This document shows positions 34,892-63,888 of a stretch of DNA of 64,000 bases, one piece after another. The position numbers and the translations under genes were made by a program. The stretch comes from Pontiella agarivorans (GTDB lineage: Bacteria; Verrucomicrobiota; Kiritimatiellia; Kiritimatiellales; Pontiellaceae), in contig NZ_JARVCO010000010.1 in the NCBI RefSeq assembly GCF_034531395.1, positions 744,001 through 808,000 on the forward strand, read 5' to 3'. Below the pieces are notes generated by a model. The model saw only the letters and a list, made by a program, of their open reading frames with translations, was not told the origin of the DNA and did not search any database. Positions within the stretch are counted from its first letter, which is position 1; the number at the start of each line of letters is the position of its first letter.

Positions 34892-36294
34892 ATATGGGGC
34901 TGAAGGTGAAGATGGGAGCCTGTTTGCTGGGCATGGCATTGGGAACGGTTGGGGTGACGCAAGCAACCACGGCAACGGGGTTTGTGCATGTGGAGCAGAT
35001 TGACGGCGTTTGGTGGTTTATTTCGCCAACGGGTGAAAAATTTATCAGCATGGGGGTGAATCACATTGAACCGCATCTTTGGTTGGCACCTTATAATAAA
35101 CAGGCCACGCTTGATCGGTATGGTAACGATATGGTTGATGAAAACGGCCGTTTTGATACATCCAGTGAGGGGGCGGAAAAATGGATTAACCGGCAGGTGG
35201 AAATTTGCGACGACCTTCATTTCAACACGTTTGGCAAGCATACGCATGAATCGATTGATGACGCACTCTACCGCGATCAGGTCTATTATATGGCCTCTTT
35301 CAAAACGGCGCCGACGGCCTATTGGCGCGAGCAGGCCGGCGAAGGGCCGCTACCCGATGTTTTTGCTCCGGGTTTTAGAGATTTTGTAGAAATCCGTGCT
35401 GAGGAGGTTTGTGCCGCGCATAAAGATAGTCCGAATATGCTGGGTTACATGTACACAGACATTCCGAATTGGATCATGCCCAAATATCAGCGTCGAGCCG
35501 TGAAGGAAGAGGTCATGGTTTATCCCTGGGTGAATGCAATGCTGCGCCAAGGGGTGACCACGCCCGGCAAACAGCGGTGGATCAAACTTTTGCAGGACCG
35601 CTATTCAACCCCCGAAGAAGCAGCGACCGTGTGGGGGCTTCCGGTTTCGGCTGACTATGGAATCACCTGGGAACAGATGGCTCGCTTATTTACGTGGTTT
35701 AAACCGGCGGATCTCAAGAAAGCGGATGCCGATATGGTTGCATTCATGGAACAGATTGCGAATCAGTGGTATCGTATTCACTATGAGGCCATCAAAAAAC
35801 GCGATGCTCATCATCTGATTTTCGGGGATAAAAGTATGGTGGAGTCGTACCGGAAATTTCTCGTTCCCGCGTTGCGGCAATATGTCGATGTGGTGGTGAT
35901 TCAGGCGTACAACCCATTTTCCAAAGATGCACCAACGACCGATTGGATCTATGAAGAAATCGGAAAGCCTATTTTTAATGGCGATGGATCATTTGCCAAT
36001 ATCCGGCCGAATCAGACCAAGTATAAAGTAAAGGGTTGGTGGACCGGTGCGAAGAGTATTGAGGAGGTGGCTCGGATGTATAAAACCTCGCTCGAGGACA
36101 TGATGGCCAAACCTTACATGATTGGCTGGCATCATTGTGGATGTATGGAGCAGTGGGATACCGCTGCGCGCGGCGATGTGGACAGCAATGAAACCGGTTT
36201 TATGGATCCCTTTGAAAACTACCATACGGTCTTTACCGATGTGATTAGGGACACGAATGCCAGGGTGAATAAACTGCACGAAGCGGCGAAGTAA
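34888..36294 (+). CDS. Agarase-like TIM-barrel protein, type A copy 2
   Basis: A 468-residue exported protein with a signal peptide (KVKMGACLLGMALGTVGVTQ). It is clearly a duplicate of 5966-7357: GVWWFISPTGEKFISMGVNH, MLGYMYTDIPNW, HLIFGDKSM, YVDVVVIQAY, KPIFNGDGSFA and GWHHCGCMEQW. The TD(V/I)P motif (D191) and GDG (D366) hold Asp where clan GH-A retains the acid/base Glu region and the nucleophile Glu. Conservation of these Asp residues between copies suggests they are kept by selection. Translation is probably coupled with the sulfatase before it. The next gene is a type B protein 21 bases on. The enzymatic role is unproven. Confidence 0.75.
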   Translation: MNMGLKVKMGACLLGMALGTVGVTQATTATGFVHVEQIDGVWWFISPTGEKFISMGVNHIEPHLWLAPYNKQATLDRYGNDMVDENGRFDTSSEGAEKWINRQVEICDDLHFNTFGKHTHESIDDALYRDQVYYMASFKTAPTAYWREQAGEGPLPDVFAPGFRDFVEIRAEEVCAAHKDSPNMLGYMYTDIPNWIMPKYQRRAVKEEVMVYPWVNAMLRQGVTTPGKQRWIKLLQDRYSTPEEAATVWGLPVSADYGITWEQMARLFTWFKPADLKKADADMVAFMEQIANQWYRIHYEAIKKRDAHHLIFGDKSMVESYRKFLVPALRQYVDVVVIQAYNPFSKDAPTTDWIYEEIGKPIFNGDGSFANIRPNQTKYKVKGWWTGAKSIEEVARMYKTSLEDMMAKPYMIGWHHCGCMEQWDTAARGDVDSNETGFMDPFENYHTVFTDVIRDTNARVNKLHEAAK

Positions 36295-36315: not shown

Positions 36316-37812
36316 ATGAAAAATTTATTGAGAAATTGTGCGTTTGCTTTGGTTGCTGGAGTGATGTCGGCCGGGGCTGCGGAATTGGATTCCTATGGCG
36401 GCCTGAAATCCATTAAAGGAAAAAAAACAGGCTTTTTTCATGTGGAAAAAATTGATGGGCGTGACTGGTTTGTGACGCCGGAAGGAAATGCTTTTTATGC
36501 GGTTGCTCTGAGCCACCTTTTTTCGGGCGATTCCGATGTGGCCTGCTCGAATGTATATGGGGGCGATTACGACGCATGGCTACGGGACTCATTTGATAAG
36601 GTTAAAGCACTTGGCTATAACTGCGCCCTGGGTAGTGCCACTAGTCCCGAGCGAAATTTGAATGGCTTTGTGGATATGGATAAAGCGGAAGCTATTTTCC
36701 GGGAGCATAATTTCCCGTTTTCCGTGGGCGTGATTTTGATTAAGCACCCATGGGAATTTGTAGAAGGCGAAACGCTGCCGGACATCTTTGAGCCGGCCTA
36801 TAAAAAAATGATCGAAGCGCGCGCCGAAGCGGTGTGTCCGAAATATAAAGACGATCCTTTGGTGATGGGCTATTTCTATGGGTTTGGTGCCTTTAATTCG
36901 GCGGCCACCTGGGTGAATCATCATCTCTCGCTGCCGGCCGGTGCGGCGGGGCGGGAAGCAATCGTCGATTTACTTGCGCAGCGTTATGGCGGCGACATTG
37001 CCCGATTTAATGCCATCTATGAAACAAACCTTTCCTCTTTTGACCAACTGAAACAGAGCAAAGTCCTCGAGTATGCAGAAGACTATGAGCTACGGAATTA
37101 TCCGGAGGTGCGAGCCGTGCTCGATCAGGATCTCTTGAATGACTTTGAGGCCATCATTTCACTGATGTGTACCACGCTGTATAAAACGGGGCATGATGCC
37201 ATTCGTAAGTGGGATTCCAATCACCTGATTCTGGGTTCTTTTGTGAAGGAGTGGGCGCTGTCGATTGATTCATGGAAAGCGGTGGCTCCGTATGTCGATG
37301 TGGCTGCTCCGCAACATCTCAATAAAGATATTTCGGTGAATGCCATTGGTAAGGCGGTGGATTTACCGGTGATTGTTTCCGACGATGAATTTGGCTTTGG
37401 GTATCCTAAAGGCCACGGGTATGCCTGTGTGAAAACGCACGATGCACGCGGCGAAATTTATCAGGCGCATCTGATGCGCTGTTATAAAGATCCAACTATT
37501 ATTGGTTCGAGCTATTGCGCCTGCATGTATGATCAAGGCGGAAAGGCGATGAAGTATGGCAAGCAGGAGGGGTTCTATGATCTGAATGGGAAGCCGCGCC
37601 CGTATCTCATTGAAACCGTGACAGAGATAAATAACGCGGTCTATCTGCATACCCCTCATCCCGCGAGTTCCGCTACATTGGATCATTTGTCGGCCAGTTA
37701 TTTTTCCAAATGGGATAATTATAAAGTGCTCTCGAGTTGGGAAAAGCAGCAGCACGCTAAACTGGAAAGCTTGAAGAAAAAGAAAGCTAAAAAGACCGCA
37801 ACGGTTCAATAA
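36316..37812 (+). CDS. Agarase-like TIM-barrel protein, type B copy 2
   Basis: A 498-residue exported protein (signal peptide NLLRNCAFALVAGVMSAGA). It is a duplicate of 8433-9887, with the same blocks: GRDWFVTPEGNAFYAVALSH, VACSNVYGGDYDAWLRDSF, a strand-4 segment GYFYGFGAFN from about Y186, NHLILGSFVKEW, VSDDEFGFGYPKG (D356, D357, E358) and GSSYCACMYDQGG. The usual acid/base site is again non-acidic, as in copy 1. The C terminus ends in a lysine-rich tail (ESLKKKKAKKTATVQ) that copy 1 lacks. It closes the operon: a stem with a T-rich run follows at 37890. It is probably secreted or periplasmic. Confidence 0.74.
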   Translation: MKNLLRNCAFALVAGVMSAGAAELDSYGGLKSIKGKKTGFFHVEKIDGRDWFVTPEGNAFYAVALSHLFSGDSDVACSNVYGGDYDAWLRDSFDKVKALGYNCALGSATSPERNLNGFVDMDKAEAIFREHNFPFSVGVILIKHPWEFVEGETLPDIFEPAYKKMIEARAEAVCPKYKDDPLVMGYFYGFGAFNSAATWVNHHLSLPAGAAGREAIVDLLAQRYGGDIARFNAIYETNLSSFDQLKQSKVLEYAEDYELRNYPEVRAVLDQDLLNDFEAIISLMCTTLYKTGHDAIRKWDSNHLILGSFVKEWALSIDSWKAVAPYVDVAAPQHLNKDISVNAIGKAVDLPVIVSDDEFGFGYPKGHGYACVKTHDARGEIYQAHLMRCYKDPTIIGSSYCACMYDQGGKAMKYGKQEGFYDLNGKPRPYLIETVTEINNAVYLHTPHPASSATLDHLSASYFSKWDNYKVLSSWEKQQHAKLESLKKKKAKKTATVQ

Positions 37813-49111: not shown

Positions 49112-50575
49112 ATGAATATAAAAATGATTTCTCTAGGGATTTTTGTTGTTGCTGCTGCTGGAGCGAAGGCCGCGGAGCATTATAAACCGACCTATGATTC
49201 GCTCAATGCACACCAAACACCGGAATGGTTCAGGGATGCCAAGCTGGGTATTTATACGCACTGGACACCGACCACCGTGGGAAATGAAAATGTGGGTTGC
49301 GGCTGGTATCCGTTTCATATGTATTGCCGCGATGAAAAACTCAACGGTCATCTGGAAGTTAAGGGTAAGGGACCGCATCCAGCCTACACAGGGCATGTGG
49401 AGAAGTATGGTGATCCGGCGGAGTTTGGATGGAAGGATGTTATAAAAACCTTTAAACCCACGCAGTTTGATGCCGCGGAGTGGGCGGATCTGTTTTTGGA
49501 GGCCGGTGCCCGTTTTGCGGGACCGGTAGCCATTCATCACGACGGCTATCCGATGTGGGCGTCCGACGTCACGCGCTGGAATGCCGGCGATATGGCGGGT
49601 CAGGATTTTTCCGCCGAGCTGGAGCGTGAAATCCGCAAGCGCGGGATGAAGTTTGTCGCTTCATTTCACCACAGCCACACTTGGCGGTATTTTATTCCGT
49701 CCTATGAATTTGATGGCGCTGATCCGGCTAATGTGGATCTCTATTTCGAGCCGCATGAAATGGGTGATCCGCTTTCGCCTCGTTTCCGGAAATGGTGGAG
49801 AGGATTACTGAATGAGTATATTGAGAAATATGATCCGGACATGGTCTGGCTCGATATGGGGACTCGCGATATTCCTGACGATCTGATGTATCCCTTCCTC
49901 GCTGACTATTATAATCATGGACTGAAAGAGGGTAAGGAGGTCGCCACGACCGTGAAAAACTATTCTCCTTATCTGCCGGGTGCGATCATTGACTATGAAA
50001 AGGGTCGGGTTAAGGATATGCAGAAAAACCCTTGGTTGACCGATGATACGGCACAACCGGGTTGGTTCTTTTCGAATCGTGATATGGATAAAACGGCTGA
50101 TGAACTGGTGGATGAGCTGGTGGATATTGTCAGTAAGAATGGCTGTTTGTTGCTTAATGTCGGCCCGAATTCCGATGGGGTTATTCCTGAAGCCCAGAAG
50201 GATCTGTTACGTGGATTGGGCGCCTGGATGAAAGTGAACGGGGAAGCAATCTATGATACGCGACCTTGGAACGTGGCGGGAGAAGGTCCGACGAAACTCC
50301 GGAAAGAAGGCAGTTTTTCCGGCAAGTTGAAATATACCGAGAAGGACATTCGCTACACGAAAAGTAAAGATGGCTCAACCGTCTACGCGATGGTGCTGGC
50401 CCGACCGGACCGCGAAGTGGTTCTGACGGGGGTCAATGGTAAAAAGGTCTGTACGGTCGAACTGATTGGCTATGCAGGCGATCTTAAATGGAGTCAGTCT
50501 GACTCCGAACTCCGCATCATGTTCCCTTCCGGTGCCGCTGATTCCGCCGCTTATGCTTTCCGGATTACGTTATAG
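49112..50575 (+). CDS. GH29 alpha-L-fucosidase
   Basis: A 487-residue exported enzyme. Signal peptide [21 protein letters not shown]29 blocks: [39 protein letters not shown] with [17 protein letters not shown] with the candidate nucleophile D in the WLD motif, [11 protein letters not shown], and [20 protein letters not shown]. It differs clearly from the GH29 at 28692 in the strand-4 and nucleophile neighbourhood and is likely a different subfamily. It acts on terminal alpha-L-fucose. It lies 21 bases after a sulfatase and 70 before another, and is probably in the same operon. The start has AGGATAAAA upstream. Confidence 0.93.
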
Positions 50576-50645: not shown

Positions 50646-52016
50646 ATGATAAGACATACGATAAAATTTTTTCTGAACATTGCAGGCTTGCTTTGCGTCG
50701 TCACTCAAGCTGCTGAGCCGCCTAATATTCTGATTATTCTCACTGATGATTACGGGTATGGGATTACCACTTCGTATGGTGGGGATAGCAAATGGGCCTC
50801 TACCCCGAACATTGATCGGATAGGAGCTGAAGGGGCTTGTTTTACTGAAGCCTATGTGACCTGTTCCGTATGCGGCCCGTCACGGGCCGGTATTATGACC
50901 GGCCGTTATCCGCAGCGCTTTGGCTATTACACCAACAAGGATGCTCAGGCTGGAGGGGTCCCGGCCGACCAATCCATGATGGCGGGCTATTTTAAGGAGG
51001 CAGGATATGCCACCGCTATGATCGGCAAGTGGCATCTGGGATCAACAACGCCTGGGCAGCATCCATTGGAAAAAGGATTCGACGAATATTTTGGTTTCGA
51101 TAATGCCCAGACGGACTACTTTAAATCGCCTATCCTTTTTGATGGGCGCAAGAAAGTGAAGCAACATGATTATTTGACTCGCGCGTTTACCGAACGTGCG
51201 GTGGATTTCATGGAGCGCAGCGGCGACAAACCTTTCTTTCTTTATCTGGCCTACAATGCGGTTCATGGCCCATCACAGGCTCCTCAGGAAACGGTCGATC
51301 GATACCCTAACCTTCCAGAGAGAGATGCTGTTCGGGTGGCCATGGTTGAAGAGCTTGATAATGGAGTGGGTCAGGTTCTTGATGCGTTAAAACAAATCGG
51401 TAAAGAAGATAATACGCTGGTCTTTTTCCTGAGTGATAACGGCGGACTGCCTGTTTGGTGGGAAGGCAGCAACGGAGACTTGCGCGGATTTAAGCGAGCT
51501 CAGTTTGATGGCGGAGTTAAAGTGCCCATGATGGTTCGCTGGCCTCAACGTATTCCGGCCGGCCAGGTCCGCGAACAATTGGCCATTGCGCTCGATATTC
51601 TGCCTACAGCTCTCGATGCATCGGGTATTGCTGCACCGGAGGATGAACTCCTCGATGGAATGAATCTGCTGCCGGCGCTGGAATCTGCTCAAGACCTGAA
51701 TCCGGAACGGAAACTGTTCTGGGCAGGGTCGCATTTTGATGACATAACGATGCAAACACCGGGCTATGACATGGCCGGTCCGCCTCCCTCCTGGGCGGTA
51801 CGTCAAGGTCCGTGGAAGTTGGTTCAGATTATGGAGATGGGACCGCCGATGTTATTCAATATCGAGCAGGATCCGGGGGAAACGGAAAATGTGATCGCGC
51901 AGCATCCGGAGACCTCCAGTAAAATGACGGAAGCTTTTTGCAACTGGTTTAAACTCGGGGTTCCGCCGATCGGCTGGAAGTCCGAATACTACGAACAACT
52001 TAAAAGCGTGGAATAA
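50646..52016 (+). CDS. Family S1 sulfatase, arylsulfatase A-like
   Basis: A 456-residue exported sulfatase. Signal peptide RHTIKFFLNIAGLLCVVTQA. Motifs: ILIILTDDYGYGITTSYGG, CGPSR (C76), GIMTGRYPQRFGYYT, MIGKWHLGSTTPGQHP, YLAYNAVHGPSQAP and FLSDNGGLPVWWEGSNGDLR as the second metal site. DDYGYG and GKWHLG place it in the arylsulfatase A/N-acetylgalactosamine-6-sulfatase branch. It is shorter than most. The exact subfamily is not certain. It sits between a GH29 and a GH2 on the same strand and probably in one transcript. Confidence 0.94.
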   Translation: MIRHTIKFFLNIAGLLCVVTQAAEPPNILIILTDDYGYGITTSYGGDSKWASTPNIDRIGAEGACFTEAYVTCSVCGPSRAGIMTGRYPQRFGYYTNKDAQAGGVPADQSMMAGYFKEAGYATAMIGKWHLGSTTPGQHPLEKGFDEYFGFDNAQTDYFKSPILFDGRKKVKQHDYLTRAFTERAVDFMERSGDKPFFLYLAYNAVHGPSQAPQETVDRYPNLPERDAVRVAMVEELDNGVGQVLDALKQIGKEDNTLVFFLSDNGGLPVWWEGSNGDLRGFKRAQFDGGVKVPMMVRWPQRIPAGQVREQLAIALDILPTALDASGIAAPEDELLDGMNLLPALESAQDLNPERKLFWAGSHFDDITMQTPGYDMAGPPPSWAVRQGPWKLVQIMEMGPPMLFNIEQDPGETENVIAQHPETSSKMTEAFCNWFKLGVPPIGWKSEYYEQLKSVE

Positions 52017-52073: not shown

Positions 52074-54509
52074 ATGACTATGAACAGAAGAAGGTTTATT
52101 GATGCCGCAATAGCCTGTTCGGTTTTAACGACTGTGGCGAAGGGCGGACGAGTGGATTCTGATTTTTCCGGGATGCGGAAATCATTCAATACCGATTGGC
52201 GCTTTCACAAAGGCGAAGCGCCCGGTGCCGAAGCATCCGGGTTCGACGATTCATCCTGGCGTCCGCTCGATCTTCCGCATGACTGGGCGATCGAGGGCCC
52301 TTTTGATATCAAATACAACGCCCGGTGCGGTGGCCTGCCATTTCACGGAACGGGATGGTATCGAAAATCATTTGATGTATCTGCCGAGCTTAAAGGCAAG
52401 GTAATCTCGATTGTTTTTGATGGGGCCATGTATAACGCGCATGTCTGGATTAACGGCCATTTTCTGGGGAACCGTCCGTTTGGTTATATTGAATTTCAAT
52501 ACGATATCAGTTCGTATCTGAACTATGGCGGATCAAATGAGATCGCTGTACAACTGAAACCGGAAGATCTCTCTTCGCGGTGGTATCCGGGCGCCGGTCT
52601 TTATCGTAATGTCTGGTTGGATGTTCGCGATTCAACGCATGTGGCGCAGTGGGGTACTTTTGTAACCACGCCGGAGGTTTCCGATGCATGGGCAACGGTG
52701 AATGTGGAAACTGCGTTGGTCGGTAGCGGATCCTGTGAATATGAAGTCGTGGATCCGGACGGCCAGATCGTGGCCCGTGGCACGTCATCTGAACTGCGTA
52801 TTAAAAACCCGAAACGATGGGATATCGATTCTCCCAATCTTTATCTGCTTCGGACTACGGTTTATGTCCGGGGTGAAGTGGTGGATCAAACGGTGACCCG
52901 GTTTGGAATTAGGACCTTGAAGTTTAGCAAAGAAGGCTTTTGGCTGAACGGCAGGAAAGTACGTATTCAGGGTGTCTGCCTGCATCATGATAATGGTCCG
53001 TTAGGTGCAGTGGTTAACCGCCGGGCGATTGAGCGCAAGTTACAGATTATGAAGGCGATGGGCGCAAATTCGATTCGCACAAGTCATAATCCGCCTTCAA
53101 ATGAATTGCTTGATCTTTGTGATGAACTGGGTCTGTTGGTGATGGACGAGGCCTTTGATGTCTGGGAACGACAGAAGGTGAAGAACGGCTATAATAAATT
53201 TTTCAAGCAATGGGCTGAGCGGGATCTTAAGGATATGGTGCGGCGCGATCGCAACCATCCGAGTGTTTTTATGTGGAGTATCGGTAATGAAATCGGAGAG
53301 CAAAGGGATTCCGTTGAGGGTCCGGCCATTGCGCGCAGGTTAGACGGTTATGTGAAGGAACTGGATACAACCCGTCCAACCACCTGCGGCTTTAACAAGT
53401 GGCCGACTCCCTATAAAAACGGTATGGCCGCTCAGATCGATATCGCCGGGATGAACTATAAGCCGTTGGACTATGGGGAAGCGGTGAATGCGTACCTGCC
53501 TAACAATCCGGTGGTGGGTTCTGAGACTTCATCGTGTACCAGCAGTCGCGGGGTTTATCATCTTCCGATTAAAAAATATAAAACGCATTCTTCGAAGCAG
53601 GTCAGCAGTTACGATCTGATCGGTCCTCCATGGGCTTATCCGCCGGATGTTGAATTCGATGCGTTGGAACGTAATCCGGAAATTCTCGGCGAATACATCT
53701 GGACCGGTTTCGACTATCTGGGTGAGCCGACGCCCTACGGAGGAAAGGACAACAGCACGAATGGTTATTGGAACGGTGACTGGCCGGCACGCAGTTCGTA
53801 TTTCGGTGCGGTTGATCTTTGCGGTTTCCCGAAGGATCGATTCTACCTCTACCAAAGCCAGTGGACCAAAAAGCCGATGGTGCATGTACTGCCGCACTGG
53901 AACTGGGAGGGCTCGGGCCACGAAAATATTCCGGTCTACGCGTATACCAACTGTGAAGAGGTGGAGCTTTTTGTTAATGGGAAGTCATTCGGGCGCAAGA
54001 TCAAGGGCAAGGATTTGACGAAGCTTTTGGTTAAGTTTAACCGATATAAATCAAACCATTTTATGTCGAAGTACCGCTTGTCATGGGAGGTGCCGTACGC
54101 ACCGGGCAGCTTGAAAGTGGTCGGATATATCGGAGGTAAGCCGGTAGCGGAAAAGGAAATAAAGACGGCGGGCAAGCCGGCTCAAATTGCGCTGTCTCCT
54201 GACCGTTCGGACCTTTCTGCCGATGGAGTTGACCTGTCGTATGTCACCGTTCGAATCGAGGATGCCGACGGAAATCTGTGTCCATTGGCCGACAATCTGG
54301 TTCGGTTTCAGGTTGAAGGAGCAGGAAAGATAGTCGGTGTGGGTAATGGCAATGCCGCTACGACCGAACCGTTTGTTGCAGATTACCGTACCGCTTTCAA
54401 TGGCCTTTGCATGCTGATTGTGAAGGCGGGAATGTTCGGCGGGCCGATTCGCATATCGGCAGTATCGGAAGGTCTGAAATCATCGCGGTGCAGTCTGCTG
54501 GTCAGGTAA
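52074..54509 (+). CDS. GH2 beta-galactosidase-type enzyme
   Basis: An 811-residue protein with the five-part GH2 architecture: sugar-binding jelly roll (to about 170), immunoglobulin-like domain, TIM barrel (about 285-580) and two C-terminal beta domains. The acid/base is E406 in WSIGNEIGEQ and the nucleophile is E484 in VVGSETSS. The Arg-Tyr type motifs NHPSVFMW and TGFDYLGEPTPYGG support it. A twin-arginine signal (NRRRFIDAAIACSVL) suggests Tat export. ATG 52074 or 52080, after GAGAGG. Specificity is beta-galactosidase-like or related (inference). A dead copy of its last 41 codons is at 63766. Confidence 0.93.
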   Translation: MTMNRRRFIDAAIACSVLTTVAKGGRVDSDFSGMRKSFNTDWRFHKGEAPGAEASGFDDSSWRPLDLPHDWAIEGPFDIKYNARCGGLPFHGTGWYRKSFDVSAELKGKVISIVFDGAMYNAHVWINGHFLGNRPFGYIEFQYDISSYLNYGGSNEIAVQLKPEDLSSRWYPGAGLYRNVWLDVRDSTHVAQWGTFVTTPEVSDAWATVNVETALVGSGSCEYEVVDPDGQIVARGTSSELRIKNPKRWDIDSPNLYLLRTTVYVRGEVVDQTVTRFGIRTLKFSKEGFWLNGRKVRIQGVCLHHDNGPLGAVVNRRAIERKLQIMKAMGANSIRTSHNPPSNELLDLCDELGLLVMDEAFDVWERQKVKNGYNKFFKQWAERDLKDMVRRDRNHPSVFMWSIGNEIGEQRDSVEGPAIARRLDGYVKELDTTRPTTCGFNKWPTPYKNGMAAQIDIAGMNYKPLDYGEAVNAYLPNNPVVGSETSSCTSSRGVYHLPIKKYKTHSSKQVSSYDLIGPPWAYPPDVEFDALERNPEILGEYIWTGFDYLGEPTPYGGKDNSTNGYWNGDWPARSSYFGAVDLCGFPKDRFYLYQSQWTKKPMVHVLPHWNWEGSGHENIPVYAYTNCEEVELFVNGKSFGRKIKGKDLTKLLVKFNRYKSNHFMSKYRLSWEVPYAPGSLKVVGYIGGKPVAEKEIKTAGKPAQIALSPDRSDLSADGVDLSYVTVRIEDADGNLCPLADNLVRFQVEGAGKIVGVGNGNAATTEPFVADYRTAFNGLCMLIVKAGMFGGPIRISAVSEGLKSSRCSLLVR

Positions 54510-54617: not shown

Positions 54618-55169
54618 ATGGAAGACGCTGAGCTTATTGTGAGGTCACAAAATGATGATCTCGATGCATTTTCGGAGCTGGTAATTCGTTACCAATCCAA
54701 TGTGCGTGCGTGTTTGAGTGTGCGGCTTTCCTCCGCCCACGAAGCAGATGACTTGGCTCAGGATGCCTTTATTATTGCTTTCCGAAAGCTGGATCAATTC
54801 AATCCGGAAAAGCCGTTTGGACCTTGGATTCGTACGATTGCGCTCAATCTGTTGAAAAATTATTTTCGTAAGCATCGGGCCCATCCTGTCGGTGGTGCTG
54901 TTGAGCTTGAAGAGCTGATCAATCTGCAAGTTAAGCATCAATGTTCCGCCAAGACCGAATCTGAGATGATGACCGCCCTTAAACGGTGCATGACTAAACT
55001 CGATGGTCCAATGGCCGGCCTTCTCCAATTACGCTATTACGAAGGACTTTCTATTAAAGAAATTACCGAAACGATGAACGTTCGGCACTCCACGATGACC
55101 ATGCGGCTACATCGTTTGCGGGATCAGCTCCGCCGCTGTATTGAACAAAAAAGCGAAGGGGTGTCATGA
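54618..55169 (+). CDS. ECF-type RNA polymerase sigma factor
   Basis: A 183-residue sigma factor. Region 2: AFSELVIRYQSNVRACLSVR, HEADDLAQDAFIIAFRKLDQ and RTIALNLLKNYFRKHR. Region 4: LLQLRYYEGLSIKEITETMN and MTMRLHRLRDQLRR. It overlaps the next gene, a FecR-type protein, by four bases (ATGA), so both are translated together. This is the sigma/anti-sigma layout common in Verrucomicrobiota carbohydrate loci. It probably responds to a cell-surface signal relayed by the FecR-LamG protein. Its target promoters are unknown. Confidence 0.94.
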   Translation: MEDAELIVRSQNDDLDAFSELVIRYQSNVRACLSVRLSSAHEADDLAQDAFIIAFRKLDQFNPEKPFGPWIRTIALNLLKNYFRKHRAHPVGGAVELEELINLQVKHQCSAKTESEMMTALKRCMTKLDGPMAGLLQLRYYEGLSIKEITETMNVRHSTMTMRLHRLRDQLRRCIEQKSEGVS

Positions 55170-56713
55170 ACAAACAAAATGAACAGCTCATTGCTGCTTA
55201 TATGGCCGGAGAACCGGTTGCAGAAGACCTTTTAGAAGCCTGTCGGAAGGACCCTCAATTACTGAGCCGGGTGACTGACCTTACCATCATTGACCGCTTA
55301 CTGGCTCATTGCAGTGAAGATGATTGCTCGCTGTTTAGTGCTGAAGTTATTCAGCGCCTTAAAATAAAAGACGGGGAACTGTTTGCGGAAAAAGTACGTC
55401 ATCAAATTGCTTTCAGGAAAGTGAACTATATAAAACCACTTGCCTGGTTTGCGGCGGCAGCCTGCCTGGCAATAAGTCTTCTGTTCATTTTTAAACCGAA
55501 TCCGCAAGCTTTCGGACATATCACAATGACGACTGATGCTGTATGGGGGACGGATCAATTGAGTCCGGGCGAAAAACTTCCAGGCGATTTGCTTGAACTC
55601 ACGCATGGCTATTCAGAGGTGACCATGGATAACGGTGTGAAGCTAATTCTGGAAGCGCCGATAGAGTTTGAGGTTCGTTCTTCCGATCTTGTCGTTGTGC
55701 ATCAGGGGCGTTTGGTGGCGCGAGTTCCTGAACAGGCCATTGGTTTTACTGTCCTGACTCCGAATGCTGAAGTTATCGATCTCGGAACCGAATTCGGTAT
55801 CTCCGTTACGCCATCAGGAGGTTCTGAAGTTCATGTGCTGGAAGGGGAGGTGAAAGCCCGTTCTTTACAGCGGGGGCCTTTTGCTAATCTGGTAAAAAAT
55901 GAAGCTATGGTTTTTAATGCGCATGAGCAGGCTAAACTGATTACCAGTAATCCGCAGCTTTTTCGCAGGGCTTTGCCGGGGCGTTCCGCGAACCATCCGG
56001 AATATTTGCACTGGTCTTTCAACAACACCACTCACATTGCGCATTGCGGTGGAACCGGTATTGCCGGTCAGCACTATCCTGGCACGCTCAAATCAATGAC
56101 TGATAACGGATCCGGTCCCTCGGTCGTTGAGGGTGTCTTTGATCGTGCGTTGTATTTCAACGGAAAAGATAGTTATGTCACCACCGATTTTCCGGGAATT
56201 GGCGATAATCATCCCCGTACGGTGGCTTTTTGGTCAAAAATCCCGGCAGATTTTTCCATCAATGAGGGGTATGGCATGCTGGGCTGGGGGCTCATGGAAC
56301 CGGGGTCGGCTTGGCAGATTTCACCCAACCCGGATGAGAAAGAAGGTCCTCTGGGCTGCCTCCGTATTGGGACCATGAGTGCCCCGGTTATAGGAACTAC
56401 GGATCTTCGTGATAATCAGTGGCATCACATTGCTATCGTCATGTATGGCGGAGATCAGGCTGATGTTTCCACCCACATTCTTCTTTATGTAGATGGTCAG
56501 CTCGAAATGACCGCCCGCAAATCGGTGGCGCCGATATCCACCCGTCTGGATGCTCCGAAATCGCATGCTCTAACGTTTGGGCGCAATATCGGATATAAAA
56601 AATCTCCTAATCGGAAATTGTTCAGAGGCGCCCTTGATGAAATCTATCTCTTTGATACCGCGCTGGATCAGGAAAAAATCCAGTGCCTCATGAAAACGAA
56701 TCGTCTCAATTAA
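55166..56713 (+). CDS. FecR-type membrane sensor with C-terminal LamG domain
   Basis: A 515-residue protein. Residues 1-85 are cytoplasmic and resemble an anti-sigma domain. A transmembrane helix spans about 90-108 (PLAWFAAAACLAISLLFIF). The FecR domain follows, with FTVLTPNAEVIDLGTEFGIS and SEVHVLEGEVKAR at about 195-230. The C-terminal half is a LamG/concanavalin-like fold (RALYFNGKDSYVTTDFPG, HHIAIVMYGG, LYVDGQLEMTARKS, LFRGALDEIYLFDTALDQEK). In this phylum such proteins bind an extracellular glycan and control the cognate sigma factor. It is overlapped by the ECF gene and followed by the propeller gene. Confidence 0.92.
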   Translation: MNKQNEQLIAAYMAGEPVAEDLLEACRKDPQLLSRVTDLTIIDRLLAHCSEDDCSLFSAEVIQRLKIKDGELFAEKVRHQIAFRKVNYIKPLAWFAAAACLAISLLFIFKPNPQAFGHITMTTDAVWGTDQLSPGEKLPGDLLELTHGYSEVTMDNGVKLILEAPIEFEVRSSDLVVVHQGRLVARVPEQAIGFTVLTPNAEVIDLGTEFGISVTPSGGSEVHVLEGEVKARSLQRGPFANLVKNEAMVFNAHEQAKLITSNPQLFRRALPGRSANHPEYLHWSFNNTTHIAHCGGTGIAGQHYPGTLKSMTDNGSGPSVVEGVFDRALYFNGKDSYVTTDFPGIGDNHPRTVAFWSKIPADFSINEGYGMLGWGLMEPGSAWQISPNPDEKEGPLGCLRIGTMSAPVIGTTDLRDNQWHHIAIVMYGGDQADVSTHILLYVDGQLEMTARKSVAPISTRLDAPKSHALTFGRNIGYKKSPNRKLFRGALDEIYLFDTALDQEKIQCLMKTNRLN

Positions 56714-56778: not shown

Positions 56779-59169
56779 ATGAAAAAATTAACCACAAGAG
56801 TTCTCGTCGGTGCCTCCACTATACTGTTGGCAGTTCAAATAACTAAAGCAGCAGAACCTATTAATATTTCAGGCGTCTATCCGCACCTCGCCATGTGGAA
56901 TGATGAAGGTGAATGCGGCACAGGTGCCGTCGTTCCATGGCTGGGCAATCTTTATGCCATCACCTATGCTCCGCACCTTCCAGGCGGTTCTTCTGACAAG
57001 CTCTATATTATTTCCCCCGATTTAAAGCAGACGATTTTTGAGGGAAGTGTGGGGGGAACTCCGGCCAATCGCATGATTCATAAAGAATCAAAGCAACTGC
57101 TGATCGGCCCGTATCTGGTGGATACGCAAGCGAACGTTCGGGTGATTCCGCCCTCGAAAATGTATGGCCGACTCACTGGAACCGCTCGCCACCTTAAAGA
57201 TCCGATAAACCACGTCTACTACGCCACAATGGAGGAAGGGCTTTACTCCGTAAATATTCATACACTTGAGGTGGAAACACTTATTCGGGACGGAAATGGA
57301 AAAGCTCCTAAAGCCGGAATCCGGAGCAAGCTTCCCGGGTATCACGGAAAAGGACTCTATACCGGCCAAGGCCGCCTGATCTATTCAAACAATGGTCAGC
57401 ACAGTCCGGAAGCCCGGAAGGATCCAACTACAGAATCTGGAGCATTGGCCCAATGGTTTGGGGAAGGCGACTGGGAATTGGTCCGTCGCAACCAGTTTAC
57501 TGAAATTACAGGCGCCGGAGGTCTTGAGGGGAATGCTTTTTCCCAGGATCCCGTTTGGTCAATGGGGTGGGATGCACGCTCTGTTCTGCTCGCTCTGCTT
57601 GAAGATGAAGAATGGACATTTTACCGTTTGCCTAAGGGAAGCCATAGCTATGATGGCGCTCATGGCTGGAATACCGAGTGGCCGCGTATTCGTGATATTG
57701 GGGAGTCAGATTATCTGGCCACTATGCACGGAACCTTTTGGTCTTTTCCTCCTACGTTTACAAAAGCCAATTCTGCCGGGATTGCCCCTCGTTCCAACTA
57801 CCTGAAAGTAATCGGTGACTTTTGTCTGTGGAATAACCGGCTGGTGCTGGGATGCGATGACTCTGCGCGATCTGAATTCCTCAACAAGCGTTCGTTCAAG
57901 CCTCGCGAAAGTGCCGCACAGGAATCCAACTCCAACCTATGGTTTATTAATCCAAAACAGCTGGACCACTTTGGAGTCGCAATCGGCCGTGGTTCGGTTT
58001 GGTTGAATGATTCCATTGAAAAAGGGGCCGTCAGTGATCCCTATCTCTTCTCCGGTTACGACTATCGCCTGCTTCAGCTTAAGCATGATGCCGCGACACC
58101 GATTACTTTTGTGCTGGAAGTTGACCGTGAAGGCACCAATGAATGGACGCCGCTTCGTTCTATAACGGTGCCCGCAAAAGGTGCGGTATCGCATCTCTTT
58201 TCCGCTGATGAAGCAGGCAGTTGGATTCGTTTGAAATCGGAAGGGGCGGCAAGCGGGGTTACGGCTCATTTCCATTATCGTAACCGGGATACGCGTTCGG
58301 CTTTAAACAGTCCGCTGTTTGCTGGAATAGTCACACAGTATCAGGAGGCCTCTCTAAAGGGCGTCATGCGCAGTATGGACCATAAAACGCTGGGGCTGGC
58401 TCTTTCTGAAAATGAGTACTATGAGCTCAATTCCAGAATGGAATGGGTTAAGATTAACGATGCTAAAAAAGCGACGGAACTGATGCGCTCAGTGAAACAG
58501 CCCAAGCATTCGTATCGAGTCGATGATGCATCGGTGATTGTGGAAGAAGATGGACAGCGGTGGCGTTTCCCTAAAAACGACGCTTACTCTAATGACGGCT
58601 CGCGCGTCTGTCGTGAGGTCGCAACCGAACGGGACCTTTTAAATCTGCATGGCACGTTCTATGAGCTCCCGGCACGAAATGCGCAGGGCATGGCTAAGGT
58701 TCGTCCGATCGCGACGCATAACCTGGTTATTCACGACTTTTGCTCACATGCCGGATTACTTTTGTTTACGGGGCTGGATATCGCTACGGAAAGTGACCAT
58801 ATCTTTCGCAGTTCCGATGGTAAAGCGGCCGTTTGGGCAGGCGTTGTAGATGATCTCTGGAAACTCGGAAAAGTACGCGGTCATGGCGGGCCATGGAAAA
58901 ACAGCCGCGTAAAAGAGGGCATCCCTTCCGATCCGTATATCATGACCGCCTATGACAAAAAGAGCGTGACGCTTGAGAGTGCAACTCCGACTGAGATTTC
59001 GCTTGAAGTGGATGTGGATGGCACCGGAATTTGGGTTCCTTATCGCTCATTTAAAACGGAAGCCGGCAAAGCGGTAACGCATACCTTCCCGGAAGGCTTC
59101 AGTGCATACTGGGTTCGAGCGGTCTGTCATTCAGATACCACTGCAACGGTTCAGTTTGTTTATGAGTAA
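56779..59169 (+). CDS. Secreted protein with internal duplication, probable beta-propeller
   Basis: A 796-residue exported protein (signal peptide KKLTTRVLVGASTILLAVQI). The first third has propeller-like strands (VVPWLGNLYAITYAPHLPGG, HVYYATMEEGLYSVN). Then a unit appears twice: SDYLATMHGTFWSFPP with DFCLWNNRLVLGCDDSA and VSDPYLFSGYDY, and later RDLLNLHGTFYELPA with DFCSHAGLLLFTGLDIA and PSDPYIMTAYDK. Each unit ends in an EVDxxGTxxWxPxRS beta-sandwich. The frame is open to 56731; ATG 56779 begins the signal peptide. I recognise no known enzyme, so glycan binding or hydrolysis is a guess. Remnants of a second copy lie at 42122 and 45821. Confidence 0.7.
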   Translation: MKKLTTRVLVGASTILLAVQITKAAEPINISGVYPHLAMWNDEGECGTGAVVPWLGNLYAITYAPHLPGGSSDKLYIISPDLKQTIFEGSVGGTPANRMIHKESKQLLIGPYLVDTQANVRVIPPSKMYGRLTGTARHLKDPINHVYYATMEEGLYSVNIHTLEVETLIRDGNGKAPKAGIRSKLPGYHGKGLYTGQGRLIYSNNGQHSPEARKDPTTESGALAQWFGEGDWELVRRNQFTEITGAGGLEGNAFSQDPVWSMGWDARSVLLALLEDEEWTFYRLPKGSHSYDGAHGWNTEWPRIRDIGESDYLATMHGTFWSFPPTFTKANSAGIAPRSNYLKVIGDFCLWNNRLVLGCDDSARSEFLNKRSFKPRESAAQESNSNLWFINPKQLDHFGVAIGRGSVWLNDSIEKGAVSDPYLFSGYDYRLLQLKHDAATPITFVLEVDREGTNEWTPLRSITVPAKGAVSHLFSADEAGSWIRLKSEGAASGVTAHFHYRNRDTRSALNSPLFAGIVTQYQEASLKGVMRSMDHKTLGLALSENEYYELNSRMEWVKINDAKKATELMRSVKQPKHSYRVDDASVIVEEDGQRWRFPKNDAYSNDGSRVCREVATERDLLNLHGTFYELPARNAQGMAKVRPIATHNLVIHDFCSHAGLLLFTGLDIATESDHIFRSSDGKAAVWAGVVDDLWKLGKVRGHGGPWKNSRVKEGIPSDPYIMTAYDKKSVTLESATPTEISLEVDVDGTGIWVPYRSFKTEAGKAVTHTFPEGFSAYWVRAVCHSDTTATVQFVYE

Positions 59170-59609: not shown

Positions 59610-59682
59610 TCATATAACAGTTGAGTTAAAAGAGTTCCACATGGGCCTGTGGGAGTCGCGAGACTGAAATAGGGAGATGAGC

Positions 59683-62600
59683 ATGAAAAAAAAGAGACTA
59701 ATGCTGTCCATATGTGCAGGTATAGCATCCTGTGCAATAGCGCAAACTACACTCTTAGACGTGCAGTTTAGCACCGGCGAAGGATATGCCGATGGAGAAT
59801 TGGCAGGTCAGAACAACTGGGTAGAGCTTAATGTTTCTTCAAATGCGATAGGTGATACCGCGTTTGATGTGGATGCGACAGCAGCCGTTTTGAGCTCAAC
59901 AGATGCGACTTATACCAACGCAAGTTATGTTTATTTGGATACGGAATCCGCAGGAAACGAGGCCGGAGACGAGTGGACTGGGGTGATGGACTTCAAGTTG
60001 AATATGACGGATGCCGGGCAAGGCTATGGCGAAGATTATTCAGTAAATACGACCATTTTCTTGGCCGGATTGACCGCGAGTGATACGAATCTTCCTTCTC
60101 GCTCTGGAAGTGATTGCGTGATGGTGAACTTGCGAGTTCGAGCTGCTACAGGTCGCTTGGAAGCTTATCTGGCATCTGAAGATGACGGGGAGCTATGCTT
60201 CATGCAGGTTGCTCATGGAACCAACCTGGGCTGGAATGTAGAGAGTGCGGATATTCAGGATTTCGAAACCGATGATTTGCGGTTTTATTGGACCGTGCGA
60301 AAGTCGCTCGGGTCGGATACCTATGTTGCTTGGGGTGGTCTAACCAATTTGAACAGTGGATATACCGTTACAGGAAGAACGCTGGGGGCGTTGGCTGATC
60401 CAGATGCAAAAGCGGTGTCCACGGATCGTACGAAAATTTATGCGGCGACTGATCCGATATTTTCCATGGGATATATGGGACAGCACAGCATCAATTCAGA
60501 AGGTGATGAAATCCATGTTGATATTGAGATCGATTCACTTTCAGTGGTGAAAAACAGTGGTGTCGCACCGGTTATTATTGCTCCTGAAGGAGTGATGGCC
60601 AGTTCATATGACCAAGAAGTTACGGTTACATGGAATCCTGTTGTTGAGGCTTCTGACTATTCGGTGAAGCGATCTGAAACGATGGGGGGGCCGTATACAA
60701 CGGTTGCGACGACCAATGGAACCTCTTTTTTAGATCTTAACCTGATGAATGACACAACCTATTATTATGTCGTTGCTGCTAATTATGAGGGGTATGGGTC
60801 TAGTAATTCTTTGGAAGTGGCTGCCACTCCCAAAGAAATCCATGTGGGAACAATTGTTGATACAGAATTTACGGCTGCTGATGGCTATGTGGACGGTAAC
60901 CTTGCCGGACAGCAACGGTGGGTGTGGATTGAGTCGACTTCGAATCAGGCTTTTAATGTGATTGATACGGCCGGAAACGGGGCGGCGGATACCGTTTCCA
61001 CGAGAGATTCGTTTGATACGCAGGTCGGAAATAGTGTCTATCTCGATAAACTGATGGATAATGTTGAGGACAATGAGTGGAGTGGCTCTCTTGATTTTAA
61101 ATTAACAGCGGACCCGGTTGAAGGGGGAACGGTTGCTACCTTTGGCAATCAAACGGTATTTTTGTTGGGACTAACCTCAGATCCCTCGAAAGGGCTGGAC
61201 GCTAATGATGGCAGTATGGGCTTAATTAACATATACACTCGCGCAACAGGGAATCTGGAGATTCTCTTTGCTTCATCGGGAAACAGCCTTCGGATGTTGT
61301 CGACGGTAGGGCAGACCAGCTTAGGTTGGGATCCAAAAACCGGTGAAGATATGGTGACGGATGAGTTGAACTTGGAGTGGTCGATTCGTAAGACGCGGGA
61401 TCAGGATGTCTATATTGCATCGGCAACCGTATCCAATAAGGTGACAGGATTAACCTATAGCGAGTCCAGTCCGGTGGTTTACTCACGTTCAGAATTATAT
61501 AATTCGTCAACGGCATACTTTGGAATGGCGCATCATGAAGATGCGGATGATATTCACGATGCACCTACCCCGCGAACCAATTCATTGGTCCATGTGACGA
61601 TTGATGCGTTGCGCGTTGAAAAAATAGAGAGTGTTTTGCCGGTTGCAGCGGCTGTTACGGACCTTGAGGCGGTTGGCAGCGATCGAACGGTTACCTTGTC
61701 CTGGACGGAGCCGTTGGAATCGATCGGCTTTAATATCTATTTTTCTGAGCAATCCGGGGGGCCTTACTCCTTGCTGGCAAATCAGGTAGATGCCACATAT
61801 ACCGATTTGCCTCGGTATAATGGGCAGACAAATTATTACTATGTGGAGTCTGTTTTTGATGCGGATGTGGGAGCGGCTGATTCTGCTGAAGTCTTCGGAG
61901 TGCCTGCCGCGATCTCAACAGTATTTCATTGGGATTATTTCCCAGGCTTTACGTACTACTTCGACCTGTCAAATAAATCAACGGTTGATGGCATTACCAC
62001 CGTAGTGGCCCATGATACACCGTTCGCATTTAATTATGGCGGCGGTGAAGGAGAGGGGGTTTATGGCGTTCTTCAGGGTTCGACAGAAAACCTGCGCGGA
62101 GGAACCGGAAGTAACGGCTATGCACCGCGATTGAACAGCGGAGGCAATGGTGCCGCCGGACAGGAAGTCATTGATTGGGACATCCGCAATGGAGCCACCG
62201 GCGTGGGCATGATCTACTTCAAAGAAGAGGATTGGGCTACACCAGGAGCTGTTGATGCAACTGAGTTTCAGGTTGGCTACGAATTAAATGCATTTGTTTT
62301 TGCGGGGAGTGGCGGCAGAAAACTGCGTGCGATGATTCGGAACGGGGATACATGGTATGCGAGTGAGACTGCCGCAACTGCAAATGGACAGATGATCACG
62401 ATTCCGGATGTGATGGCTGAATCTTGGGCGGTTATTCCAGATGTAGCGGAACTGGGAGCGACGGCGTATATGAATGAGGTTTCAGGTTTCAGTACGGCAA
62501 ACAATTCGACCTTTACCAATATTAATGCGGTCGGTTTCTTTAAAGGGAACGTTGAGGATGGTGGTTTCCGTTGGCGTATTCTGGGACTCAAGCTTACTGT

Positions 62601-63000
62601 TGCGAATTCGCCCAGCTCCTACGACTTCTGGACTGCGCAATATGGCCTCAGTGGTGATGACGCTCTGGAAACGGCCGATCCTGATGGGGATGGGGTAACT
62701 AATATCGCAGAGTTCGGATTAGGCGGTGATCCGCTGGATCCACTGAGTGCGGGAACGCGTGAGATGGTGAGCGATACGGTCAACGGAGTAGATGGATTTA
62801 TTTATTCCTATGTGAAAACGCGCGACCCTGTAGCTGATCTGACGTATACGTTTAAGACTACGGAAAATTTGATGATGCCGTTTACAGATACGGGGTATAC
62901 CGTGCTTGATGAAGTGGTGTTGGATTATTACTGGATTGGGGTGACTAACTTTGTTCCAGCTGATGTTGATGCCCGTTTCATGCGTTTAGATATTGAATAA
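59683..63000 (+). CDS. Large secreted LamG/FN3 repeat protein
   Basis: An 1105-residue exported protein (signal peptide KRLMLSICAGIASCAIAQ). A beta-sandwich unit appears twice: STGEGYADGELAGQNNW at about 28-44, and TAADGYVDGNLAGQQRW at about 400. Each is followed by a fibronectin type III domain (DQEVTVTWNPVVEASDY, and SDRTVTLSWTEPLESIGFNI). A third beta-rich domain precedes the calcium-binding repeat DPDGDGVTNIAEFGLGGD and the end MRLDIE. This is the architecture of surface or secreted glycan-binding proteins in this phylum. No catalytic motif was found. ATG 59683 fits AGGGAGATG upstream better than ATG 59677. A terminator follows at 63012, and the CATAC box (site 5) precedes it. Confidence 0.75.
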   Translation: MKKKRLMLSICAGIASCAIAQTTLLDVQFSTGEGYADGELAGQNNWVELNVSSNAIGDTAFDVDATAAVLSSTDATYTNASYVYLDTESAGNEAGDEWTGVMDFKLNMTDAGQGYGEDYSVNTTIFLAGLTASDTNLPSRSGSDCVMVNLRVRAATGRLEAYLASEDDGELCFMQVAHGTNLGWNVESADIQDFETDDLRFYWTVRKSLGSDTYVAWGGLTNLNSGYTVTGRTLGALADPDAKAVSTDRTKIYAATDPIFSMGYMGQHSINSEGDEIHVDIEIDSLSVVKNSGVAPVIIAPEGVMASSYDQEVTVTWNPVVEASDYSVKRSETMGGPYTTVATTNGTSFLDLNLMNDTTYYYVVAANYEGYGSSNSLEVAATPKEIHVGTIVDTEFTAADGYVDGNLAGQQRWVWIESTSNQAFNVIDTAGNGAADTVSTRDSFDTQVGNSVYLDKLMDNVEDNEWSGSLDFKLTADPVEGGTVATFGNQTVFLLGLTSDPSKGLDANDGSMGLINIYTRATGNLEILFASSGNSLRMLSTVGQTSLGWDPKTGEDMVTDELNLEWSIRKTRDQDVYIASATVSNKVTGLTYSESSPVVYSRSELYNSSTAYFGMAHHEDADDIHDAPTPRTNSLVHVTIDALRVEKIESVLPVAAAVTDLEAVGSDRTVTLSWTEPLESIGFNIYFSEQSGGPYSLLANQVDATYTDLPRYNGQTNYYYVESVFDADVGAADSAEVFGVPAAISTVFHWDYFPGFTYYFDLSNKSTVDGITTVVAHDTPFAFNYGGGEGEGVYGVLQGSTENLRGGTGSNGYAPRLNSGGNGAAGQEVIDWDIRNGATGVGMIYFKEEDWATPGAVDATEFQVGYELNAFVFAGSGGRKLRAMIRNGDTWYASETAATANGQMITIPDVMAESWAVIPDVAELGATAYMNEVSGFSTANNSTFTNINAVGFFKGNVEDGGFRWRILGLKLTVANSPSSYDFWTAQYGLSGDDALETADPDGDGVTNIAEFGLGGDPLDPLSAGTREMVSDTVNGVDGFIYSYVKTRDPVADLTYTFKTTENLMMPFTDTGYTVLDEVVLDYYWIGVTNFVPADVDARFMRLDIE

Positions 63001-63420: not shown

Positions 63421-63635
63421 AACAGTGTTGGAAACGTACGGGTACTTTTCTGAAAAGTCGCTTGCGCCTGCGTCTCCAAACCGCGCTTATAATTTTCTGC
63501 GCGGGTGTCAACCCGGTCTGGTTGCGCTCGTAGTTGCTTTGATCCGTACTACGGGACGTCTGCTTTGGCATCGAGCAGGCTATTGAGCATCTCTTCTGCC
63601 GAGCTGCGCACTTCGGTATCGTTGATTTCGTTGAC
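63421..63635 (-). pseudogene. IS256 (Mutator)-family transposase N-terminal remnant
   Basis: On the minus strand, one frame reads NDTEVRSSAEEMLNSLLDAK, another NYERNQTG, and the third DTRAENYKRGLETQA. Together they mimic the order L-LLxAEAD, RYERxxxR, DTRAGxYxR in IS256-type transposases. The frame changes and the missing DDE domain show it is a decayed fragment. It lies 131 bases before the GH2 remnant. Confidence 0.5.
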
Positions 63636-63765
63636 CTTTTACGTGATGTTGTCCGTCTCTTTCCGGCTTTTTTCTGTGTGTTTGGTTACACTGACTGGTT
63701 GTATCAGCCGGAGGACCTCCTATTCAAATGTGCGAATTTATTGGTACGTTATCGTTGCTGTCTGC

Positions 63766-63888
63766 CGCACCGCTCTTAACGGCCTTTGCATGCTGATTGT
63801 GAAGGCGGATAAAACCGGTGGATCTGTAAGCATGACGGCAACTGGGGAAGGTTTGAAGCCTTGGAAATGTAAGCTCACGGTTGGCTGA
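63766..63888 (+). pseudogene. C-terminal fragment of a GH2 enzyme (copy of 54509 end)
   Basis: The last 40 codons of a plus-strand frame read RTALNGLCMLIVKADKTGGS and VSMTATGEGLKPWKCKLTVG, then stop. They match the end of the GH2 at 54509 (RTAFNGLCMLIVKAGMFGG, then RISAVSEGLKSSRCSLLV). In the DNA, about 28 bases in a row from GGCCTTTGCATGCTGATTG onwards are identical. The rest of the gene is gone. The remaining bases to 64000 hold no gene. Confidence 0.75.

Follow-up and report, generated by a model that had tools for sequence, protein, structure and literature searches.

The protein of interest (796 aa), from a marine bacterium that degrades seaweed, is encoded at positions 56779–59169 of the window, by which we mean the whole 64-kb stretch of DNA analysed. 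From its predicted structure, the best reading of this protein is that of a seven-bladed propeller from a sugar locus, bearing a partial copy of itself, and the glycan that it cuts or binds is probably algal or from plants. The family is undescribed: none of the curated libraries searched has a model for it, and by sequence it leads to no relative of known structure. We predict with moderate confidence, on the strength of the modelled fold, that its members are propeller carbohydrate-active enzymes that act on an oligo- or polysaccharide and that are similar in kind to PL25 and GH145, without being members of either.

Gene and Immediate Locus

Upstream of the gene, a row on the same strand comprises genes of sulfatase and GH29 type, a GH2 gene, an ECF sigma factor and a FecR-LamG gene. 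The features of this row that matter here are as follows.

49112–50575 (+), GH29-type protein, same gene row (Alpha_L_fucos, 3.6e-85)
50646–52016 (+), sulfatase-like protein, same gene row (clusters with sulfatase genes, cluster c1)
52074–54509 (+), GH2 (beta-galactosidase-like) protein, upstream of the sigma gene (Pfam GH2 domains)
54618–55169 (+), ECF sigma factor (TIGR02989, 130 bits; cut-off 124.55)
55166–56713 (+), FecR-LamG protein, FecR-like and then Laminin_G_3 (Pfam; 4-base overlap with the sigma gene)
56779–59169 (+), gene of interest, 796 aa (open frame, ATG start)
56779–56850 (+), signal-peptide-like start, residues 1–24 (hydrophobic stretch; low pLDDT at residues 1–12)

The original prediction, made from the DNA alone, described a secreted protein directly behind an ECF/FecR-LamG pair, and both points are supported. 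The protein begins MKKLTTRVLVGASTILLAVQITKAAEP, which by look resembles a signal peptide (maximum mean hydropathy over nine residues, 2.27), and only 65 bp separate its gene from the FecR-LamG gene. Within the FecR-LamG protein the Laminin_G_3 match (46.5 bits) is above its cut-off and the FecR match (23.8 bits) is marginally below its cut-off of 24 bits; with FecR taken at that score, the sigma factor and the FecR-like gene stand in one row, as in an ECF/FecR-type cell-surface signalling locus. No TonB receptor was found among the window proteins scanned, which cover part of the 64 kb. Promoter and terminator scans gave a signal no higher than in shuffled sequence.

The window as a whole holds sulfatase, GH29, GH2 and GH43 genes (Pfam scan). 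Downstream of the gene, at 59677–63000 (+), is a 1107-aa protein without a clear Pfam match; by eye it contains a secreted domain twice, with fibronectin-like stretches in between. In the clustering of neighbour genes it groups with three proteins found close to the relative in L003. A 127-aa frame at 63505–63888 (+) has an end that by eye resembles the C-terminus of the GH2 protein at 52074–54509 (the two stretches compared, one from each protein, begin TALNGLCMLIVKA and TAFNGLCMLIVKA), and is perhaps the remnant of a second GH2 gene. Two adjoining proteins of 468 and 498 aa (34888–36294 and 36316–37812, both +) have no Pfam match at E 1e-5.

Strain NLcol2 of the species, Pontiella agarivorans, is described in PMC10880615 as an anaerobe whose growth is supported by agar and carrageenan. 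According to the growth section of that paper, L-fucose, L-rhamnose and a fucoidan did not support growth, whereas the species description lists fucoidan among the growth substrates (PMC10880615). Passage searches of the Pontiella papers PMC10880615 and PMC7356697 found no mention of a sigma factor, FecR, laminin or a propeller.

Predicted Fold

The long form was modelled with AlphaFold2 from 38 sequences (mean pLDDT 91.3, pTM 0.90), and the model divides behind the signal-like start into four parts.

56854–58017 (+), complete seven-bladed beta-propeller, residues 26–413 (pLDDT 91.3 model; VIA-align)
58063–58281 (+), first beta-sandwich, residues 429–501 (model strands)
58291–58911 (+), partial propeller copy, residues 505–711, about 3.5–4 blades (model strand order)
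58960–59163 (+), second beta-sandwich, residues 728–795 (model strands)

Seven sets of four strands fill residues 47–413, and the strands of the partial propeller follow in the order 529–559, 586–597, 611–646 and 654–711. When the long model was compared with known structures by VIA-align, residues 26–400 matched seven-bladed propellers at Z of about 21, including virginiamycin B lyase (Vgb, 2z2o; Z 21.2, rmsd 3.9, 270 residues). Vgb is tied in Z with WDR33, the sensor BT3049 and others, among which are many pure binders and some sensors; for a predicted model, such a tie shows what the fold is likely to be, not the function. PL24, PL25 and GH145 are absent among the VIA-align matches listed, an absence that is no evidence against them.

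Searches with the whole long model were less specific. Among the best 50 Foldseek matches listed, the TM-score normalised by query length is at most 0.27, the top rank being held by the periplasmic sensor BT4663, and a search of BFVD returned only poor whole-model matches, many of them to phage proteins. A model of the short, single-copy form of the family (14 sequences, five of them first parts of long forms; pLDDT 79.7) has seven blades and one sandwich, and matches seven-bladed propellers at Z of about 20 (VIA-align).

Internal Repeat

The original prediction included an internal duplication of about 170 residues. The duplication is real, but it is longer, at about 200–215 residues, because it starts some 35–40 residues earlier. 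Segments around the two blocks first noticed align at 30% identity over 161 columns (E 1e-20, BLASTP); with wider segments, residues 272–484 align with 585–780 at 28.4% identity (E 1e-23), and the length of 170 was replaced accordingly by that of the wider alignment.

57592–58230 (+), repeat copy 1, residues 272–484: end of blade 5, blades 6 and 7 and most of the sandwich (BLASTP, profile–profile)
58531–59118 (+), repeat copy 2, residues 585–780 (BLASTP; copy tree)

Without composition correction the repeat alignment scores 85.9 bits; when the second half was shuffled 500 times, the highest score was 27.3. A profile–profile comparison of first with second halves gives 99.9% (E 4e-35). The motifs said to be shared are present in both copies, namely DFC (347/653), SDPY (419/717) and EVD (447/743), and so are SDYLATMHGTFW at residue 310 and RDLLNLHGTFYE at residue 618. 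The repeat is also found in the predicted structure, in which copy 2 would form a second set of the elements that make up copy 1.

Family Distribution and History

A family match at E 1e-10 occurs in 52 of the 288 genomes searched from the source phylum (18%, source genome included) and in 25 of 294 genomes (9%) of a second phylum, Planctomycetota; its members are situated in or close to loci for sulfated polysaccharides. One of the six other genomes of the same genus in the 288-genome set has a member, and so, in another collection, does Pontiella sulfatireligans. The family is found in a single one of 72,556 plasmid records, from Spirosoma oryzicola.

Long forms carry two copies of the repeat, and short forms (459–468 aa, nine loci) carry one. 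In five forms, of 950–976 aa, additional sequence is inserted where the two halves meet. A third repeat was rejected as its explanation, since in four of the five the insert is an F5/8 type C domain; that of the fifth (L034) has no Pfam match. A shortened clade (612–617 aa, plus L049) has lost most of copy 2. A hydrophobic start is present in 55 of 61 longer forms and in none of the nine short forms, which begin 4–16 residues ahead of the fold; the short-form start codons were chosen by script, and the open frame of L047 continues upstream over a length in which a signal peptide could lie.

Several members depart from these forms. Three long members (L038, L058, L059) are short of part of the first sandwich and have copy 2 whole, and three genomes have two family members close together at one locus (L055, L056, L057). 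In L183, L184, L187, L188, L189 and L051, all of the shortened clade, a domain resembling M14 carboxypeptidases precedes the family region in frame; in L051, L183 and L187 its score does not reach the Pfam cut-off, in L189 it has no match, and in the others it was recognized by eye. L186 has an unrecognised extension behind the family region, instead of an M14-like domain ahead of it.

A tree of 113 copies (52 first, 52 second and 9 single) was built without an outgroup, and its bootstrap was not fully settled. Ten of 71 proteins were left out: one fragment, two that run off a contig, four that have lost most of copy 2 and three in which copy 1 is partial. The two-copy proteins, 52 in number, were thus selected for having both copies, and all 52 of their first copies fall on one branch and all 52 second copies on another, each with 100/100 support. 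First and second copies thus form separate clades, and therefore a single duplication preceded the spread of these long forms. Within each of the 52 proteins the copies are 25.8–39.3% identical, which together with the two clades rules out a recent or local event; by these comparisons the repeat is ancient and family-wide, not peculiar to the 796-aa protein. The nine single copies are placed on the path between the two clades, a position that favours the short forms as the ancestral state, although a tree without an outgroup cannot decide this alone. Single-copy forms beside duplicated ones offer a testable case of propeller growth by partial self-copying.

The loss of copy 2 in four members of one clade (L049, L050, L051, L054) would suit a second half that is a decaying remnant without function, the first propeller alone being of importance. 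This is very improbable, given that copy 2 is intact in 55 of the 59 longer proteins that no contig end truncates (both copies are whole in 52, and three miss part of copy 1), and that copy 2 has invariant residues of its own across 38 aligned long forms: R596, R609, R612, E613, E617, R618, D653 and D691.

Association With FecR-LamG Genes

We counted FecR-LamG and ECF genes on the same strand within 3.5 kb upstream of 39 long-type places, each with at least 3 kb of upstream sequence. A FecR-LamG homologue is present at eight of the 39, an ECF match at seven and both at six. Two of the eight places share one operon, leaving seven loci, that of the 796-aa protein included; one of the ECF matches (26%) looks unrelated, and the sigma gene of L002 lies barely beyond the limit. 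Seen from the other side, the six best non-self matches to the FecR-LamG protein in the 288 genomes are in G172, G211, G194, G235, G215 and G254, and five of these stand 18–1382 bases upstream of a family member. The sixth, G235, has no family match in the 288-genome search, and the next-best FecR-LamG matches (G178, a second place in G254, and G066) are away from any family gene. The source genome has no second FecR-LamG match at E 1e-5, and its nearest other ECF factor is 31% identical.

Judged from these gene positions, the pairing exceeds local chance. The co-occurrence with FecR-LamG is borne out for the closest FecR-LamG relatives but fails as a general rule, with no FecR-LamG gene within 3.5 kb upstream at 31 of the 39 long-type places or at any of the nine short forms. 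Because most long-type places and all short forms are without it, FecR-LamG is a genuine partner that can nonetheless be exchanged for others, which is what one would expect of the regulator of a catabolic gene. Directly upstream of six of the nine short forms lies a gene of cluster c3 in divergent orientation; both c3 genes that were scanned are LacI-type. One short form comes after an IclR-type gene.

A stronger version of this partnership would make the 796-aa protein a co-sensor, whose propeller binds the outside glycan and presents it to FecR-LamG, as a separate-protein analogue of a hybrid two-component system. The 65-bp gap, the five of six best FecR-LamG relatives that travel with the family and the first Foldseek rank of BT4663 all agree with such a role. 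We consider it unlikely, since most long-type places and every short form do without the partner, and since the whole-model TM-scores are so low among the Foldseek matches listed. That FecR-LamG and the 796-aa protein would recognise one and the same glycan, as had been suggested originally, is a reasonable inference, and the ECF/FecR-LamG pair might serve as a reporter in a search for the glycan that induces the locus.

Links to Sugar-Degradation Genes

One link to sugar metabolism is a fusion at L049:4234-8523, on one contig, in which a GH2 protein is joined in frame to a family member. Its GH2 part is 36.7% identical to the GH2 protein of the window (52074–54509) over 837 columns, and the propeller part does not itself begin with a signal-like stretch. 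Elsewhere, a beta-galactosidase-type GH2 gene lies 111 bases after one short form, and a heparinase-like gene and a sulfatase gene adjoin two others. The Spirosoma oryzicola member lies 44 bases behind a RagB/SusD gene, itself after a TonB receptor (SusC/SusD).

Neighbours were tallied from 100 same-strand genes that stand first or second from the family gene on each side. Excluded from these were one duplicate, two members of the family itself and eight genes set aside by length or without a rule, and the FecR-LamG and ECF genes of L060, one place further out, were added, which raised the LamG and ECF counts by one each. Among the resulting 91 neighbour proteins the only recurrent families are LamG, ECF and sulfatase (6/91); a GH78 domain occurs in 3/91, and no glycoside hydrolase family is frequent enough among the 91 to name a substrate.

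Conserved Residues and Predicted Function

In the 38 long forms, nine of the ten polar residues on the innermost propeller strands are at least 90% conserved (R98, H101, R137, H189, K191, Q239, R303, R305 and D347), compared with 8 of 27 on other strands (Fisher p 0.002). With loops included the contrast is weak (23/184 for inner strands plus one face vs. 12/203 elsewhere, p 0.03). In a 19-row alignment of the nine short, four shortened and five insert-bearing forms with the 796-aa protein, seven of the nine inner-strand residues are invariant, R137 and Q239 being the exceptions. R131, H138, E152, H295 and E300 are invariant as well, so that the invariant set contains H and R residues; it also contains Y.

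A propeller enzyme is the reading that we favour, because the conserved polar inner strands, the GH2 fusion, the F5/8 type C inserts and the sugar-locus neighbours point to one, and because short forms without a hydrophobic start suit a cytosolic enzyme better than a surface binder. A pocket kept in secreted and apparently cytosolic forms alike favours catalysis over surface binding. The central propeller pocket would be catalytic, in the manner of the PL25 and GH145 lyases and glycosidases, and the substrate would be anionic, sulfated or uronate-bearing, as suggested by the abundance of Arg, Lys and His among the conserved residues. A large extracellular substrate would be held with the help of the extra half-propeller and second sandwich, and FecR-LamG would sense that glycan or a fragment of it, releasing the ECF sigma factor for expression of the locus.

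Several observations weaken the enzyme reading. Family searches gave no sequence relation to any enzyme, the structural neighbours tied in Z with Vgb include pure binders and sensors, recurrent neighbours are few, the GH2 fusion is on one contig, and the short-form starts were script-chosen. Conserved pockets also occur in binding propellers. A non-catalytic role is possible, though less probable: the protein would be a surface or periplasmic lectin whose propeller and two sandwiches hold polysaccharide for the neighbouring GH2, GH29 and sulfatase enzymes. Surface glycan-binding proteins are often located after SusC/SusD, as the Spirosoma member is, and the F5/8 type C insertions, the modular repeats and the signal-like starts of the longer forms would all fit. 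Against a lectin are the nine short forms, all of which look cytosolic, where a surface binder makes little sense, and the better conservation of polar residues on the innermost strands.

A bolder form of the enzyme reading, which we regard as rather doubtful, is that of a new enzyme family of CAZy rank in which one ancient duplication of the last blades and the sandwich gave a second, smaller propeller of about four blades, with a conserved charged cluster of its own. One secreted protein would then bear two different sugar sites and be induced by a dedicated ECF/FecR-LamG glycan sensor. Should the family prove to be enzymatic, it would fill a gap in the known activities that degrade algal and plant glycans.

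Comparison With Known Families and Systems

That the family was unrecognised, as first claimed, agrees with the sequence searches. At E up to 1 neither Pfam nor NCBIfam has a family that matches the 796-aa protein, and the PDB has no matching sequence at E up to 10, so that no confident match to a characterised family emerged. Profiles of the 39 long and nine short members likewise have no hits at E up to 10 among 177635 distinct PDB sequences, the solved PL24, PL25 and GH145 members included. Against Pfam, the 39 long members match nine families, all weakly (the commonest, PLipase_C_C, in 6/39, best E 3e-4), and the nine short members match none; against NCBIfam, 19 mixed members match one family (2/19, E 5e-4). 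PMC open-access papers yielded nothing on point for FecR-LamG pairs or for a propeller–sandwich duplication.

Membership of two propeller families was rejected by profile–profile comparison. BNR_4, which is near to the PL25 and GH145 families, reaches a probability of 0.1–0.2%. PL22 (Pectate_lyase22) oligogalacturonide lyase is a cytosolic seven-bladed propeller and in both respects resembles the short forms as they appear, but the hhalign probability is 0.9% for short and 1.8% for long forms, measured against a set of five PL22 matches, two parts of which found each other at 100% as a positive control. Three BNR_4 propeller proteins are clustered at 892–911 kb of the same contig, about 90–110 kb from the gene. 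Of the four PL22-bearing genomes among 145 searched, three (G077, G128, G140) also carry the family, too few to weigh.

Among structural relatives, Vgb shares the seven-bladed propeller over the 270 aligned residues but is 11% identical, acts on an unrelated substrate class and is tied with many non-enzyme propellers. The GH43 and GH32 glycosidases have a propeller followed by a sandwich and stand high in the Foldseek lists of both models; their propellers are five-bladed, however, the TM-score by query length is about 0.15–0.32, and there is no sequence match. The hybrid two-component sensors BT4663, BT4673 and BT3049 likewise have extramembrane, glycan-related propellers (Z 19–21 over one propeller). 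Such sensors consist of two full propellers, a sandwich and a kinase, whereas in the 796-aa protein a single full propeller is joined by a partial one and a kinase domain is absent; the Pfam scan and the model show no fused histidine kinase or regulator, as the frame stops after the second sandwich.

The closest parallel in kind is with the PL25 ulvan lyases and GH145 (BT3686-type), which act on sulfated or uronate-rich glycans. PL24 and PL25 ulvan lyases share one seven-bladed propeller fold (PMC12915356), and GH145 and PL25 carry a catalytic set of His, Tyr and Arg on the anterior face of theirs (PMC8406133). Our models predict a seven-bladed propeller here too, and the family's alignment has conserved His, Tyr and Arg to set beside the catalytic ones (PMC8406133). 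The two groups differ in that no sequence relation joins them, and in that the present family adds a C-terminal sandwich and a duplicated half to the propeller.
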